34,763 nt of DNA from Blastococcus mobilis (GTDB lineage Bacteria > Actinomycetota > Actinomycetes > Mycobacteriales > Geodermatophilaceae), in assembly GCF_900188025.1 (NCBI RefSeq), contig NZ_FZNO01000037.1:1-34763 (forward strand). Direction: 5' to 3'. This document shows positions 10,507 through 33,871 of the stretch, piece by piece (position 1 is the first letter of the stretch; every line of letters begins with the position of its first letter). Position numbers and translations under genes: made by a program. Under the pieces are notes generated by a model that worked only from the letters and a program-made list of their open reading frames with translations, did not search any database and had not been told where the DNA came from.

Positions 10507-11970
10507 GTGACCGCGACCCAGACCCCCCCGACCGAGCACCCCAAGACCGCGAGCGACGCCGGCGCCCGGCGCTACGCGACCGTCAATCCCTACACGGGAG
10601 AAACGGAGAAGGAGTTCCCGTTCCTCGAGAGCGGGGAGATCGACGGCGTCGTCGAGCGGGCGCACGCGGCCTTCCAGGAGTGGCGCCGCCGCCCGGTCGA
10701 GGAGCGCGCCGCGGTCGTCGCCCGCGCCGCCGAGCTCATGGACGAGCGCCGCGACGAGCTCGCCGGCCTGATCACCCGCGAGATGGGCAAGCGCCGCGAC
10801 GAGGCCGTCGGCGAGCTCAAGCTGTGCTCGATGATCCTCAAGTACTACGCCGAGAAGGGACCGGGCTTCCTGGAGCCCAAGCCGATCGACGTGATGATGG
10901 GCAAGGGCGAGGCCGTCGTCGAGACCGAGCCGGTGGGCGTCCTGCTGGCGATCGAGCCCTGGAACTACCCCTTCTACCAGGTGGTCCGGGTGGCCGGCCC
11001 CAACCTGGTGCTCGGCAACACGATCCTGCTCAAGCACGCGGAGACCGTGCCGCAGTGCGCCCTCGCCATCGAGCAGCTCTTCACCGACGCCGGCGCCCCG
11101 GAGGGCGTGTTCACCAACGTCTTCCTGGCGATCCCGGACATCGAGAAGGTCATCGCCCACCGGTACGTCCAGGGCGTGACCCTGACCGGCAGCGAGCGGG
11201 CCGGCGCGAGCGTGGCCGAGATCGCCGGCCGCCACCTGAAGAAGTCGGTGCTCGAACTCGGCGGCAGCGACCCGTTCATCGTGCTCGACGCCGATGACCT
11301 CGGTGCGACCGTCAAGGCGGCCACCATGGGCCGGATGCAGAACACCGGCCAGGCGTGCACGGCGGCCAAGCGGCTGATCGTGACCGAGGAGCTCTACGAC
11401 GACTTCGTCGCCGGCCTGCAGCAGGCCTTCTCGACGTTCACGCCCGGTGACCCGGCCGACCCGTCCACGACCTTGGCCCCGCTGTCCTCCGAGCGGGCGG
11501 CCCAGGACCTGCAGGCGCAGATCCAGGACGCGATCGACAAGGGCGCGACGGTGATCGCCGGCGGCAAGCGTCCCGACCTGCCCGGTGCCTTCGTGGAGGC
11601 GACGATCCTCACCGACGTGACCCCCGAGATGCGGGCGTACAAGGAGGAGCTGTTCGGTCCGGCCGCTGTCGTCTACAAGGTCAAGGACGAGGAGGAGGCG
11701 ATCGAGCTGGCCAACAACAGCGACTTCGGGCTCGGCGCGGCCGTCTTCTCCGGCGACCTCGACCGGGCGCGGTCGGTGGCCGACCGGCTCGAGGCCGGCA
11801 TGGTGTGGATCAACCAGCCCACCGCCTCCTCGCCCGAGCTGCCCTTCGGCGGCATCAAGCGCTCCGGCTACGGCCGCGAGCTCTCCGAGCTCGGCATGTT
11901 CGAGTTCGCCAACCGGCGGCTGGTCCGCACGGTCCCGGCCAAGAAGGCGACCAAGCCGGCAGGCGGCTGA
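10507..11970 (+). CDS. NAD(P)-dependent aldehyde dehydrogenase (succinate-semialdehyde type)
   Basis: A 487-residue ALDH superfamily enzyme oxidising an aldehyde to the acid. Motifs in order: EPWNYPFYQ (substrate entrance), GSERAGASV (cofactor loop), [11 protein letters not shown] with general base Glu250, [11 protein letters not shown] with nucleophile Cys284, and [11 protein letters not shown] near residue 380. The overall pattern (ELGGSDPF and GMVWINQPT) is like the GabD1/SSADH group that feeds GABA or other semialdehydes into the TCA cycle, but the precise substrate is not provable here. The GTG start follows GAGGAT; this could be a ribosome site or a -10 6 nt upstream. It lies between the divergent SRAP gene and aroA and appears monocistronic. 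Confidence 0.9.
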
Positions 11971-12004
11971 GGCGGCTGACGGCGGTGCGGCGGAGCGAAC
12001 CGGG

Positions 12005-12010
12005 CAGGAT
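12005..12010 (+). promoter_or_regulatory. Possible -10 (CAGGAT) for the aroA leader ORF
   Basis: CAGGAT lies 6 nt before the GTG that opens the leader ORF at 12017. If used, the aroA message would start directly on that GTG, 77 nt ahead of aroA. The first base departs from TANNNT. Confidence 0.35.
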
Positions 12011-12016
12011 GTCCAC

Positions 12017-12097
12017 GTGAGCGAGCTTGCGAGCTCACGCAGATGCCCAGCACGGCCTGTCACGAGGCCGACGAGCGCCAGCGAGGAGAACTCGTGA
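12017..12097 (+). CDS. 26-codon leader ORF overlapping the aroA start
   Basis: GTG-started ORF of 26 codons whose TGA (12095-12097) overlaps the aroA GTG (12094-12096) as GTGA. Codons 3-7 read ELASS and the last codons read SEENS. The two Glu codons GAG-GAG are the aroA Shine-Dalgarno. The first 22 bases contain an imperfect dyad (GTGAGC / GCTCAC type). An ORF with the same ELASS block, the same terminal EE and nearly the same length precedes the ABC1 kinase gene at 32546. This argues for a mobile or selected leader element and not chance. Whether the peptide matters, or only coupled translation, cannot be told from one genome. Confidence 0.5.
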   Translation: MSELASSRRCPARPVTRPTSASEENS

Positions 12098-13374
12098 CAT
12101 CCGTCTGGTCGACGCCGCACCGCCCGGCACCCGTCGACGCCGTCGTCGCGCTGCCCGGGTCCAAGTCGATCACCGCCCGGGAACTGATCCTGGCGGCGAT
12201 CGCCGACGGCCGCAGCAGGCTGGTGCGACCGCTCCGCGCCCGGGACACCGATCTCATGGCAGGCGGACTGCGGGCCCTGGGGGCACGGATCGACGAGGAC
12301 GGCACGGACTGGGTGGTGACGCCGCAGCCCTTGCGCGGACCGGCCGAGGTCGACGCCGGGCTGGCCGGGACGGTCCTCCGGTTCCTGCCGCCGGTGGCTG
12401 CGCTGGCCACCGGACCGGTCCGGCTCGACGGCGACGCCCGGCTGCGGGAGCGGCCCAACGCCGGGCTCCTCGCCGCGCTCCGGGCACTGGGCGTGGACGT
12501 GGACCACGACGGCCGCGGGCGGGCGCCGTTCACCGTGCACGGCACCGGGCGGGTCCGCGGCGGCCCCGTCGAGGTCGACGCGAGCGAGTCCTCGCAGATC
12601 GTCTCGGGGCTGCTGCTGGCGGCGGCCCGGTTCGACGAGGGCCTCGACCTCTCCCTCACCGGCGGCGTCCCCTCCATGCCGCACGTGGACATGACGGTGA
12701 CGACGCTGCGCGAGCGCGGCGTCGCGGTCACCGCCACCGACCGCGGCTGGCGCGTCTCCCCCGGCCCGATCGCCGCGCTCGACCGCGTGATCGAGCCCGA
12801 CCTCTCCACCGCCGCCCCCTTCCTGGCGGCGGCGCTGGTCACCGGCGGACGGGTGACCGTCCGGGACTGGCCGGAGGTCACCACCCAGCCCGGTGCGCGA
12901 CTGGACCGGTTGCTCGCCGACATGGGCGCGGAGGTGGCGCGGACGCCGGAGGGCCTCCAGGTCACCGGCACGGGCAGGATCCGGCCGCTGGTCGCCGACC
13001 TGGGTGAGGTGGGCGAGCTGACGCCGGTGCTCGCCGCGCTGTGCGCCCTGGCCGACGGCCCCTCCCGGCTGACCGGCATCGGGCACCTGCGCGGCCACGA
13101 GACCGACCGGCTCCAGGCCCTCGACGAGGTGCTGACGGCGGTCGGCGCGCGAGTCGAGCAACTGCCCGACGGCCTGGTCATCGAGCCGGGCGCCCGGCGG
13201 CCCGCGCTGCTGGACTCCTACGCCGACCACCGCATGGTCCACGCGGCCGCGGTCCTCGGGCTGGCGATCGAAGGCGTGCAGGCGGGCAACCCCGGCGCGG
13301 TGACGAAGACCCTGCCCGACTTCGTCGACCGCTGGGCGGCGCTGCTCGACGAGCCGGCCGGAGTCGTTCCCTGA
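12094..13374 (+). CDS. aroA: 3-phosphoshikimate 1-carboxyvinyltransferase (EPSP synthase)
   Basis: A 426-residue enzyme of the shikimate pathway joining phosphoenolpyruvate to shikimate 3-phosphate. PGSKSITAREL (residues 21-31) carries the phosphate-binding Lys24. ERPNAGLLAALRALG, SSQIVSGLLLAA, GGVPSMPHVDMT and the C-terminal YADHRMVHAAAVLGL are the usual EPSPS blocks. GTG 12094 is favoured by GAGGAG just upstream and by the family N terminus. An alternative upstream start (ATG 12043) would add 17 residues unlike any EPSPS. The stop overlaps the CTG start of rsgA, as Rv3227-Rv3228 are adjacent in M. tuberculosis. A 26-codon leader ORF overlaps its start and probably couples its translation. 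Confidence 0.96.
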   Translation: MTSVWSTPHRPAPVDAVVALPGSKSITARELILAAIADGRSRLVRPLRARDTDLMAGGLRALGARIDEDGTDWVVTPQPLRGPAEVDAGLAGTVLRFLPPVAALATGPVRLDGDARLRERPNAGLLAALRALGVDVDHDGRGRAPFTVHGTGRVRGGPVEVDASESSQIVSGLLLAAARFDEGLDLSLTGGVPSMPHVDMTVTTLRERGVAVTATDRGWRVSPGPIAALDRVIEPDLSTAAPFLAAALVTGGRVTVRDWPEVTTQPGARLDRLLADMGAEVARTPEGLQVTGTGRIRPLVADLGEVGELTPVLAALCALADGPSRLTGIGHLRGHETDRLQALDEVLTAVGARVEQLPDGLVIEPGARRPALLDSYADHRMVHAAAVLGLAIEGVQAGNPGAVTKTLPDFVDRWAALLDEPAGVVP

Positions 13375-23143: not shown

Positions 23144-23148
23144 CGTCG

Positions 23149-23222
23149 TAGCGGGGACAGGATTCGAACCTGTGACCTCTGGGTTATGAGCCCAGCGAGC
23201 TACCGAGCTGCTCCACCCCGCG
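23149..23222 (-). tRNA. tRNA-fMet (CAT), initiator, copy 1
   Basis: A 74-nt cloverleaf: acceptor CGCGGGG/CCCCGCT with a C1-U72 mismatch, D arm GAGC-GCTC, anticodon arm CTGGG-CTCATAA-CCCAG, T arm ACAGG-TTCGAAT-CCTGT, discriminator A. The unpaired first acceptor pair and the three G-C pairs in the anticodon stem mark an initiator tRNA. CCA is not encoded. A -10 lies 12 nt upstream. Confidence 0.95.
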
Positions 23223-23968: not shown

Positions 23969-23975
23969 GTCGTCG

Positions 23976-24049
23976 TAGCGGGGGCAGGATTCGAACCTGC
24001 GACCTCTGGGTTATGAGCCCAGCGAGCTACCGAGCTGCTCCACCCCGCG
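23976..24049 (-). tRNA. tRNA-fMet (CAT), initiator, copy 2
   Basis: A 74-nt tRNA identical to copy 1 except for compensated or near T-stem changes (GCAGG in place of ACAGG with C in the partner strand region). It has the same C1-U72 mismatch, CTGGG-CTCATAA-CCCAG anticodon arm and TCG flank. CCA is not encoded. The flanking bases CGTCGTAG and TCGG.AGA are also shared with copy 1, showing that the copies arose by duplication. Confidence 0.95.
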
Positions 24050-31338: not shown

Positions 31339-32475
31339 GTGAGCGACACCGTCCACCCCCTGCTCCCGGCCGCCACTCCCCTGCTGCACGACGACGGAGG
31401 GGTACAGGTCGGCGGGACCGACGCCACCGACGGTCTGCTGCTGGCCGCAGGCGGCGCCGCCGCGGCCGCTCTGCTGCGCGGGCTCGACGGGCGACGGGCC
31501 CAGCGGACCGTCGTCGCCGAGGCCGCCCGCGAGGGACACGATCCCGACCACGTCACCCAGATCCTCGACGGGCTCCGGTCCGCGGGCATCCTCGTCGACC
31601 TCGACGCCGCCGATCTCCTCGCTTCCGACCCCGGACCGGCCGCGACCGCCCGCGCAGCGTCGGAGCTGCCCGCGGCACTGACCCGGCCCGGCGGCTGGCG
31701 GGCGCGACGGCAGGCCGTGGTCGTGGTCGAGGGGGCCACCCGGGTCGGCACTCCGCTGGCCGCCATGCTGGCCGCGAGCGGCGTCGGGCGGGTCAGCGTC
31801 CGGGACCCGGGCCTTACGGCCGCCGGGGATGCCGTCGTCGGGGGGCTGAGCGCGGCGGACGAGGGCAGGCCGCGATCCCTGGCGGCCGCGGACGCGGTGC
31901 GCCGGGCGAGCCCCCTCACCGACCTCCGGCCGCTGCCGTCGCACGCCGCCGACCTCGTCGTGCTCGCCCGGCCGTGGGCCGCCTCGGACCCGCTGGTCGC
32001 GGGGATCCACCGGTCGGGTGTCCCGCACCTGGTCGCGACCGTCCGGGGACAGACCGGCGTCGTCGGCCCGCTGGTCGTCCCGGGCGTGACCAGTTGCCTG
32101 CACTGCGCCGACCTCCATCGCCGGGACGCCGACTCGCGCTGGCCCCGCCTGGCGGCCCAGTTGACCGCGGTCGACCCCCCGCCCAGCGGCTCGACCATCA
32201 CCTGCCTGCTGACCGCGGCGACGGCGGCACTGCAGGTGCTGGCCCACCTGGACGGCACTGCCGCGCCGGGCGCGCTCGAGGCGACGATCGAGCTTCGCCC
32301 ACCGCACCTCGCACCGCGGGTGCGTCACTGGCCTGCGCATCCGGCATGCCCCTGCGGAGCGTCCGGTGAGCTACCCATCAGCGGTCCGCCGGTCCGCCGG
32401 ACCGTCCGTGCGGGTGCCCCGGTCGCCACTCCTGTGAGCAGGACCGACCCCCGGCAGGGAACAATGGGTGGCTGA
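31339..32475 (+). CDS. ThiF/E1-like protein with degenerate nucleotide loop (Rv3196-like)
   Basis: A 378-residue protein. The N-terminal part (about 1-95) looks like the winged-helix leader-binding region of TOMM/E1-like proteins (LLRGLDGRRAQRTVVAEAAREGHDPDHVTQILDGLRSAGIL). The central Rossmann part starts at about residue 118 (RRQAVVVVEGATRVGTPLAAMLAASGVGRVSVRD), where E1 enzymes have GxGxxG but this protein has EGATRVG. The structural zinc site is kept: Cys253 and Cys256 (SCLHCADLH) and Cys337 and Cys339 (ACPCG). GVVGPLVVPG before the first pair is typical of TOMM partners. There is no cyclodehydratase or precursor peptide nearby, so it may be a non-catalytic relative. The position before the ABC1 kinase matches Rv3196-Rv3197. 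The GTG start lies 6 nt after GACGCT. Confidence 0.75.
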   Translation: MSDTVHPLLPAATPLLHDDGGVQVGGTDATDGLLLAAGGAAAAALLRGLDGRRAQRTVVAEAAREGHDPDHVTQILDGLRSAGILVDLDAADLLASDPGPAATARAASELPAALTRPGGWRARRQAVVVVEGATRVGTPLAAMLAASGVGRVSVRDPGLTAAGDAVVGGLSAADEGRPRSLAAADAVRRASPLTDLRPLPSHAADLVVLARPWAASDPLVAGIHRSGVPHLVATVRGQTGVVGPLVVPGVTSCLHCADLHRRDADSRWPRLAAQLTAVDPPPSGSTITCLLTAATAALQVLAHLDGTAAPGALEATIELRPPHLAPRVRHWPAHPACPCGASGELPISGPPVRRTVRAGAPVATPVSRTDPRQGTMGG

Positions 32476-32549
32476 TCGAGCTCGCGAGCTCACCGAGACG
32501 ACACGGCGGCGCCGCAGGCGGCCCACCCGCCGGCGAGGAGGACGCGTGA
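32472..32549 (+). CDS. 25-codon leader ORF overlapping the ABC1 kinase start
   Basis: Reading from CTG 32472 gives a 25-codon ORF with ELASS at codons 3-7 and EEDA at the end. Its TGA (32547-32549) overlaps the kinase GTG (32546-32548) as GTGA. The GAG-GAG codons are the kinase Shine-Dalgarno. The 14-base core GAGCTCGCGAGCTC (32478-32491) is a perfect palindrome. AACAAT at 32460-32465 is a -10-like hexamer 6 nt ahead of the CTG. The start codon is not canonical, which is the weak point. The parallel with the aroA leader at 12017 is the main evidence. Confidence 0.35.
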   Translation: MIELASSPRRHGGAAGGPPAGEEDA

Positions 32550-33871
32550 GTGACGACGGACCGGTGATGCCCAGTGGCTCGGTCTCCCGGACCGCGCGAC
32601 TGGCTTCGCTCCCCCTCGGGGCCGCCGGACGCGCCACCCTGGGCCTGGGCAAGCGGCTCTCCGGCCGGCCCGCCGACGCAGTCACCGCCGAGCTCCAGCA
32701 ACGGACCGCCGAGCAGCTGTTCGCCGTCCTCGGTCAGCTCAAGGGCGGGGCGATGAAGCTCGGCCAGACGCTGTCGGTCTTCGAGGCCGCCGTGCCCGAG
32801 GAGATCGCGGCGCCCTACCGGGAGGCGCTGGTGAAGCTGCAGGAGGAGGCGCCGCCGATGCCGGTACGAACCGTGCACGCGGTCCTCTCGCAGCAGCTCG
32901 GCGGGACCTGGCGCCAGCGCTTCGCCGAGTTCGACGACCAGCCCGCCGCGGCGGCCAGCATCGGGCAGGTCCATCGCGCCACCTGGCGCGACGGCCGGGA
33001 CGTCGCCGTCAAAATCCAGTACCCGGGCGCGGCGACGGCGCTGATGGCCGACCTCAATCAGCTGGCCCGGTTCGCACGGCTGTTCGCCGCCCTCTTTCCG
33101 GGCATGGACGTCAAGCCGCTGATCGCCGAGCTCAAGGCGCGGGTGGCCGAGGAACTGGACTACGGGCTGGAGGCTGACGCGCAGCGGGCCTTCGCCGCGG
33201 CCTACGCCGGCGACGAGCAGATCGTCGTCCCCCGGGTCGTGGCCAGCGCACCGAAGGTCATCGTCTCTGAGTGGCTCGAGGGCACGCCGCTCGCCCGGAT
33301 CATCGCCACCGGCACTCGCGAGCAGCGCGACCGCGCCGGGCACCTGCTGGCGGTGCTGCACTTCTCGGGTCCCCAGCGGGCGGGGCTGCTGCACGCCGAC
33401 CCGCACCCGGGCAATTTCCGGCTCCTCGATGACGGGCGGCTCGGGGTCATCGACTTCGGCGCGACCGCGCGGCTGCCCGACGGTCATCCGGAGCCGATCG
33501 GCCGGTTGCTGCGGTGGGCGCTGGCAGGCAAGGCCGACGAGGTGCTCGCCGACCTGCGGGCCGAGGGCTTCGTGCGGCCCAACATCGAGGTCGACGCCCA
33601 AGGGGTACTGGACTACCTCCGCCCACTCCTCGACCCGGTGGTGGAGCCGCGTTTCCACTTCACGCGCGCGTGGATGCAGGAGCAGGCGGCCCGGATCGCC
33701 GACCCCCGCACCGACGCGAACCGCCTCGGCCGGCAGCTGAACCTGCCGCCGGCGTACCTGCTCATCCACCGGGTGACGATCGGGTCGATCGGGGTGCTCT
33801 GCCAGCTCGACTCCGCCGGGGAGTACCGGAGCGTCATCGAGGAGTGGCTCCCGGGCTTCGTCGAGAAGTGA
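32546..33871 (+). CDS. ABC1/UbiB-family atypical kinase (Rv3197-like)
   Basis: A 441-residue ABC1 kinase-like protein. The family KxGQ motif is in KGGAMKLGQTLS (about residue 70). The alanine-rich loop AAAASIGQVHRA replaces the glycine-rich loop. The nucleotide-binding lysine is Lys156 in VAVKIQYPG, the catalytic loop is HADPHPGNFRLL, and the metal Asp303 is in VIDFGA. There are no transmembrane segments at the C terminus, unlike UbiB. GTG 32546 is used since GGAGG lies upstream; the frame stays open to GTG 32468 with an arginine-rich stretch unlike the family. It sits upstream of whiB7 (opposite strand), and in M. tuberculosis Rv3197 lies beside whiB7 and has been linked to macrolide tolerance. 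The substrate is unknown. Confidence 0.92.
   Translation: MSDDGPVMPSGSVSRTARLASLPLGAAGRATLGLGKRLSGRPADAVTAELQQRTAEQLFAVLGQLKGGAMKLGQTLSVFEAAVPEEIAAPYREALVKLQEEAPPMPVRTVHAVLSQQLGGTWRQRFAEFDDQPAAAASIGQVHRATWRDGRDVAVKIQYPGAATALMADLNQLARFARLFAALFPGMDVKPLIAELKARVAEELDYGLEADAQRAFAAAYAGDEQIVVPRVVASAPKVIVSEWLEGTPLARIIATGTREQRDRAGHLLAVLHFSGPQRAGLLHADPHPGNFRLLDDGRLGVIDFGATARLPDGHPEPIGRLLRWALAGKADEVLADLRAEGFVRPNIEVDAQGVLDYLRPLLDPVVEPRFHFTRAWMQEQAARIADPRTDANRLGRQLNLPPAYLLIHRVTIGSIGVLCQLDSAGEYRSVIEEWLPGFVEK

Follow-up and report, generated by a model that had tools for sequence, protein, structure and literature searches.

The window analysed here comprises 34,763 nt of a Blastococcus mobilis contig (NZ_FZNO01000037.1, from position 1), and two gene starts in it are of concern, that of the EPSP synthase gene aroA and that of an ABC1-type kinase gene. 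Upstream of aroA a leader frame starts at GTG 12017-12019, 6 nt 3' of a CAGGAT box at 12005-12010, and runs for 26 codons (MSELASS...SASEENS) to a TGA at 12095-12097 that overlaps the aroA GTG at 12094-12096; the two Glu codons of the leader (GAGGAG, 12083-12088) are also the Shine-Dalgarno sequence of aroA. This is the sequence as the first-pass annotation had described it, and its GTG position, 26-codon length, ELASS and EENS stretches and TGA/GTG overlap were confirmed. The features of the two sites are as follows.

12005..12010, + strand: CAGGAT, a -10-like box of the putative ancestral leaderless-type aroA promoter, outside the element
12017..12097, + strand: element copy 1, the 26-codon leader frame from start hexamer to TGA (95.7 bits, E 2.3e-18)
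12017..12038, + strand: predicted hairpin I, GTGAGC (12017-12022) with guide 1, GCTCAC (12033-12038) (covariation, MFE fold)
12058..12063, + strand: guide 2, TGTCAC, predicted to pair with the aroA start hexamer GTGACA at 12094-12099 (inverted repeat, fold, covariation)
12058-12066 with 12091-12099, + strand: the whole predicted guide-2 helix at aroA (MFE and centroid fold)
12070..12088, + strand: conserved 3' motif GACGAGCGCCAGCGAGGAG, including the aroA Shine-Dalgarno GAGGAG
12094..13374, + strand: aroA, EPSP synthase, its GTG start overlapping the leader TGA (Pfam, 322 bits)
32460..32465, + strand: AACAAT box, 6 nt 5' of element copy 2 (ACAAT in 16/16 genus genomes)
32472..32549, + strand: degenerate element copy 2, leader start now CTG, 25-codon frame (covariance-model match)
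32546..33871, + strand: ABC1-type kinase gene, 3' of copy 2 (Pfam)

The same pattern had been reported to recur 20 kb away, and a second copy is indeed present at 32472, with a CTG start in place of GTG and 25 codons. With up to three mismatches, the pattern TGANCGAGCTNGCGAGCTCAC is expected 0.06 times in the window and is found twice, at 12018 and 32473. The 3' pattern GCGAGGAGNNCNCGTGA is by itself weaker evidence than TGANCGAGCTNGCGAGCTCAC; with up to two mismatches it has 4 window matches against 1.5 expected, of which 2 are exact, both at the elements. Since the copy-2 site was matched in 13 of the 15 other genus genomes (E ≤ 0.001), this insertion probably predates the genus.

Both copies belong to a large repeat family. 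With up to three mismatches, the hairpin core GAGCGAGCTNGCGAGCTCAC has 54 whole-genome matches (three sites enter on both strands) against 5 for a reversed control, and nearly all of the matches fetched belong to one unit of ~77 bp. It reads, in order, a start hexamer RTGASC, GAGCNNGCGA, guide 1 (GSTCAY), a variable middle, guide 2, the 3' motif, a few nt, and the RTGA of the next gene. A covariance model (E ≤ 1e-4) finds 72 copies in the B. mobilis genome itself (G000), 69 in a congener (G001) and 3-50 in each of the other 14 genus genomes. The first-pass annotation had suggested a dispersed 5' unit comprising a dyad, a coupled leader frame and a ribosome site, to be checked by looking for further copies in close genomes; these many copies, located by the covariance model, bear that suggestion out. 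Family-wide, 99 of 112 genomes match (E ≤ 1e-6). Outside the family matches are sparse, with 11 of 295 other genomes in the class sample; an order sample of 397 genomes gives 101 matching genomes, 29 of them from other families. The family, class and order scans capped the matches per genome, and the figures given for them are numbers of genomes. The units of distant families (L149, L153, L154, L155) are ~68 bp long and lack the GCGCCAGCG part 5' of the Shine-Dalgarno sequence. Contigs of a Geodermatophilus isolate and of a Blastococcus MAG also carry matches (2, from a scan that used an overlong gap, and no count), and the element in genome G010 is identical in reading to that of the Blastococcus MAG.

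Tandem units occur in sets of 2 to 7, in which each unit ends in the start of the next. Their spacing is mostly 77 bp, with one array of four at 75 bp, and the units are near-identical; Geodermatophilus sp. TF02-6 has three units in a row. At one further locus (L182) a residual mini-unit, GTGAGC-GAGGAGGAGTC-GTGAGC, lies 3' of the element and is perhaps the deletion product of an array. Separately, a second small hairpin repeat with the core GGGGGCACCTCCCGCTTGCGGGGG sits within three element copies from two genomes, at a similar position in each (L011 483-506, L096 1540-1563 and L100 1534-1557, all on the minus strand), and this core has no exact match in the 212 other loci examined.

For analysis of the junctions we used 63 of 67 matches from G000, one per tandem array, and 55 of the 58 matches listed from G001, the remaining 3 being without a start codon at the expected place; these are the 118 copies with a start codon at their 3' end. 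A set from other genera comprised 60 loci with the top model scores among the matches listed, not a random sample, of which 59 were used, L211 being left out because an internal duplication had shifted its start. An ORF of 80 codons or more begins at the 3' start codon in 115 of the 118 copies, and in 112 this frame exceeds the other two in GC3, with a value above 0.8; in the other-genus set an ORF of such length begins there in 53 of 59. Eight of the nine short-ORF cases were examined: in four another overlapping start follows within a few codons, two run into a further degenerate unit, one is cut at the end of a contig piece and one stops after 42 codons.

On the 5' side, the first nTGA of the element is the stop of a long high-GC3 ORF in 37/63 copies of G000, 36/55 of G001 and 41/59 from other genera, and such a stop lies within 30 nt in a further 3, 6 and 3, respectively. 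The other copies have a [TC]ANNNT box 4-11 nt 5' of the element in 10/23 (G000), 5/13 (G001) and 4/15 (other genera), and the stop-coupled copies have one in 3, 2 and 2. Among the copies found by the model, none lies clearly away from a start or coupling site. Because the model includes the repeat's own Shine-Dalgarno sequence and RTG, truncated copies elsewhere could escape it. The window by itself contains 156 instances of the hexamer [AGT]TGA[CG]C, 33 of which fall outside a crude coding set that covers 78% of the window. The scarcity of copies off starts would reflect either insertion directed to starts or the loss of copies elsewhere, and it would be in keeping with mRNA, or DNA under translation, as the substrate of insertion.

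Comparison across the genus provides empty sites. The aroA gene is present in 16/16 genus genomes, with the element in 2 (B. mobilis and G010) and without it in 14. In the latter, aroA starts 6 nt 3' of a -10-like box, which by eye reads CAG[AG]AT in 12 and is a one-base variant in 2, and the leader GTG of B. mobilis occupies the position of that start codon. The element-less aroA genes thus appear arranged as expected for a leaderless gene, and the empty sites indicate precise insertion. Similarly, dapF and fliO (Pfam names) have a copy in B. mobilis, and in G001 the upstream ORF meets their start directly. A promoter had also been counted by the first-pass annotation among the parts that the unit brings. 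At aroA the empty sites led us to reject this, as the -10-like box is also there in the 14 element-less genomes; moreover, some 60-70% of copies follow directly on an upstream gene, beginning at its stop codon. Of the 63 B. mobilis copies, 20 have an ortholog of their gene among the G001 loci (covering all 69 G001 copies); these orthologs carry a copy in 16 cases, are empty in 2 and are cut by the locus end in 2. There is thus turnover, and some sites are old, as that of copy 2 before the ABC1 kinase gene. We also considered an exact target-site duplication and rejected it: only base 5 of element and gene agrees above chance, and base 1 does not (p 0.07, young copies), so that no clean target-site duplication is evident.

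Two aroA loci stand somewhat apart. The upstream region in G011 (L116) is empty, and G010, whose flank is very alike, and B. mobilis carry copies with a shared rare stretch; a precise loss of the element in G011 is possible. In G008 (G008:C1:4076341-4077601) aroA is spread over three frames, from a misassembly or a disruption of the gene itself.

In hairpin I the hexamer at the leader start is paired with guide 1. The B. mobilis set, counting array units, comprises 67 matches, 66 of them distinct, and each of the six hairpin I pairs varies there on both sides. The modelled structure as a whole has a covariation score of 0.210 in this set against 0.086 when shuffled, and 0.185 against 0.083 in a second set (86 distinct), with 0 of 500 shuffles reaching it in either case, in alignments that were fitted to the model and in which related rows can beat shuffles without structure. 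Four of the six hairpin I pairs are two-sided in the second set, and the count of two-sided pairs is there weakly above shuffles, 25 of 500 reaching it. When each gene kind is represented by a single copy, each of the six positions has standard pairing in 113 to 125 of 128 copies. Leaders that start with A have T as the last base of the arm in 11 of 15. Changes in the Shine-Dalgarno stem of hairpin II are mostly one-sided or unpaired in both sets. The single aroA sequence is predicted to fold into both hairpins (MFE), with a mildly low energy (z -1.95; 8 of 200 shuffles as good).

Guide 2 comprises the six bases 12 to 7 nt 5' of GACGAGCG and is complementary to the first six bases of the gene; at aroA it is part of a 9-nt perfect inverted repeat with the start region. 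Guide 2 and the gene start are not paired with each other in the covariance model. Among 107 of the 118 copies (11 with a poor 3' motif were left out) guide 2 fits the start of its own gene at p=0.0002, the minimum of the test, overall, per genome and within subtype. A replication in the 59 other-genus copies, with definitions and sample fixed beforehand, gave p 0.0001, again the minimum, both overall and within subtype. Dereplicated to 128 gene kinds (from 166 copies), register 0 scores 4.91 per copy against 4.30 when shuffled (z 11.7). The other 12 slides score at most 2.64, about half of register 0, and three of them also exceed their own shuffles: +6 (z 4.8, p 0.0005), -5 (z 2.4, p 0.01) and -3 (z 1.8, p 0.04). 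Pairing is present between guide base 2 and gene base 5 in 112/128, between guide base 1 and gene base 6 in 110/128, and between guide base 6 and the first letter of the start in 112/128. Guide base 4 pairs in 70/128 and is an A opposite G in 51/128, and at guide base 3 a mismatch, G opposite A, occurs in 95/128.

In the other-genus set guide 1 surpasses guide 2 in its fit to the gene start (341.5 vs 324.5), and guide 2 has a fit to the leader start as well (316.0 vs 295.2 shuffled), cross-fits that arise because leader and gene hexamers are alike. Nine distant copies were aligned as well: five keep at least 4 standard guide 2-start pairs, two fit only if tandem G-A is counted, and two are unpaired as aligned; a further copy, L153, was misplaced by the alignment anchor and comes out with the unpaired ones.

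Coupling of the leader to the gene is common. Of the 102 copies of G000 and G001 that have an RTG or TTG leader start, 81 have a leader TGA overlapping the start of the gene; the others are fused in frame to the gene (13), stop earlier (5) or stop inside the gene (3). In the high-scoring other-genus set the overlap is found in 58 of 59, and the 59th has no leader start. Copies that are not 77 nt long keep phase in 19 of 46 cases, close to one third, and leader coding is not clearly under selection. A leader peptide as the main conserved function was rejected, length changes not clearly following the frame, and is also disfavoured by several GACC-subtype copies that are fused or out of frame. 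Where no ORF lies within 40 nt upstream, 7 of 28 copies lack the leader start, and where one does, 6 of 66 lack it (Fisher p 0.054; G000 and G001).

Copy number, tandem arrays, precise empty sites, start-codon seating and the covariation of two helices are seen in the sequences directly, and the repeat is apparently mobile, judging from comparison among genomes. We think it likely that it is a ~77 bp non-autonomous mobile repeat of the MIRU type that inserts exactly at RTGA start codons. Its targets would be the stop/start overlap of two operon genes, or a start behind a leaderless-type promoter position. Upon insertion the old start would become the start of the leader frame, and the gene would receive a new Shine-Dalgarno sequence and start from the element. 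Hairpin II may then mask the Shine-Dalgarno sequence and start of the gene, with guide 2 pairing its first two codons, until a ribosome translating the leader opens the hairpin and restarts at the gene; in this way expression would survive the insertion and stay tied to upstream translation. Pairing of a guide with the RTGASC target may also help to choose or keep the insertion site. At sites like aroA a 5'-terminal hairpin locking the leader start should hinder leaderless initiation, and this counts against the proposal.

An immobile alternative, which we regard as unlikely, is a structured cis-regulatory RNA, either a riboregulator or the site of an RNA-binding protein, kept by selection before the genes of a regulon. 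It would account for the covariation of hairpin I and guide 2, for the near-constant seating on start codons, for the match of the degenerate ABC1-gene copy in 13 of the 15 other genus genomes, and for the aroA copies of B. mobilis and G010, which share a stretch, GCCCAGCA, that is unusual (1 of 166 copies) and yet differ in guide and codon 2 in a matched way (TGTCAC with GTGACA, GTTCAC with GTGAAC). Copy number, however, ranges from 3 to 72 inside one genus, tandem units are near-identical, and of the 20 B. mobilis copies with a G001 ortholog 16 have a counterpart there, 2 sites being empty and 2 cut; nor do the genes have a common theme, the proteins being judged by eye. Mobile origin and later regulatory use are in any case compatible.

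It is also quite unlikely, in our estimate, that the guide-2 covariation is a by-product of lineages that each carry a guide together with a matching 3' hexamer, with no pairing involved. Subtypes do exist, guides 1 and 2 and the leader and gene hexamers are all intercorrelated (other-genus set), and element base 5 and gene base 5 correspond (Fisher p 4.6e-6 for the 56 young copies in which both are G or C, without dereplication), all of which would be in line with such descent. Against it, the signal keeps z 9.9 when the 128 dereplicated copies are shuffled within subtype, with register 0 the largest by far, and rare starts carry rare guides, as in the 9-nt match at aroA GTGACA. After dereplication, 12 copies have G at gene base 6 and 7 of them have C at guide base 1, vs 6 of the 104 that have C at gene base 6. 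Where gene base 5 is T in other-genus copies, the guide has A in 5 of 9 (four GAGCAC, one GAGCAT), before three kinds of gene, the other 4 being G-T. Codon 2 of aroA, finally, appears ancestral, because element-less relatives include ACC or AAC there. Ortholog pairs give examples of both kinds: gene base 6 and guide base 1 have changed in a matched way in L041/L090 and L048/L091, and guide or start has changed without compensation in L035/L097 and L047/L083.

If the mobile repeat does pair with its gene start, guide and target may have come to match by either of two routes. Guide classes are discrete among near-identical copies, and element base 5 agrees with gene base 5 in 43 of 66 young copies against 27.8 expected (p 0.0003), observations that speak for the guide selecting its target. 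The agreement in old copies is 22 of 52 against 18.7 (p 0.18), or p 0.015 for the 16 old G001 copies alone; orthologs were not removed from the young or old counts. The matched differences between the two aroA copies that share GCCCAGCA speak for the guide following its target. Tentatively, one may go further and picture a guide-directed mobile unit, in which two guides read the target RTGASC, one for each future junction, and each start is then locked in a hairpin. Opened only by the terminating upstream ribosome, such a hairpin would leave the element almost invisible to expression. It is conceivable on the same model, and again we put it forward with some doubt, that lineages with the guides GCGAAC, GGTCAC/GGGCAC and GAGCAC settle on starts with matching second codons.

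Among known systems the closest in arrangement are the MIRU of mycobacteria, which serve in typing tuberculosis strains. Their target sites are DTGA, and to our knowledge they have been described as without dyad symmetry. A passage of PMC12548453, citing Supply et al. 1997, presents them as short interspersed repeats, apparently mobile, that lie at start codons and contain an internal ORF with a 4-nt overlap, and a passage of PMC4213456 has senX3 and regX3 separated by two or three copies of a 77-bp MIRU. On those passages the likeness extends to the many dispersed short copies (72 here in G000), to the start-codon seating with an ORF coupled by a 4-nt overlap (81/102 and 58/59 here), to apparent mobility (here via the empty sites at aroA, dapF and fliO) and to tandem units of 77 bp (here in arrays of 2 to 7). 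The present element differs in occurring in Geodermatophilaceae, and its host is no mycobacterium, so we file it as MIRU-like and not as MIRU. It differs also in sitting at leaderless-type promoters as well, and in its two covarying hairpins whose guides pair start hexamers. The element would work like MIRU, being likened to them by arrangement and not by sequence homology; the two predicted hairpins, each pairing a start hexamer with an internal guide, are new here. The first-pass annotation had known of no published description, and the arrangement is in fact known in mycobacteria under the name MIRU; outside mycobacteria no report of the element was recognised in literature judged by title and the start of the abstract, with most subscription papers outside its scope. 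The leaderless coupled small ORFs that Shell et al. 2015 (PMC4633059) found over-represented in mycobacteria are similar in having an RTG at the mRNA 5' end and a small ORF joined to the gene by RTGA; the passages on them name no repeat family, and in the present case one such family supplies the arrangement at many genes.

The hairpins and guides also invite comparison with elements moved by transposases. IS200/IS605 ends are recognised by guide pairing, and REP/RAYT and IS200/IS605 systems involve small hairpin repeats. The present element might accordingly be imagined as a REP-type repeat moved by an IS200/IS605-like Y1 (RAYT) transposase that reads hairpins and guides, given a hairpin adjoining the element end and guide-like complementarity to the target, but we hold this to be highly improbable: the Y1 transposase domain PF01797 was found in 0/16 genus genomes by a search whose control finds it in 5/14 reference genomes, and the element, unlike those systems, sits on start codons and carries a Shine-Dalgarno sequence and a frame.

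How MIRU pick start codons is not explained in the passages of PMC12548453 and PMC4213456. As a MIRU-like repeat, the present family would offer a functional relative that is large and diverse (genomes of a single genus hold 3 to 72 copies) and whose pairing signal to each target gene can be followed base by base, and the question of start-codon choice becomes testable in soil bacteria. Many gene starts in the Geodermatophilaceae would then bear a structured leader of insertion origin that is invisible to gene calling alone.

Searches of Rfam gave no match at E ≤ 1 for window positions 11900-12200, and 3 sub-threshold matches in 20 loci, none of them on an element. Across the whole window, the matches at gathering score were two tRNAs and nothing else. 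On its minus strand lie two tRNA-Met genes (anticodon CAT), at 23148-23222 and 23975-24049, ~830 bp apart.
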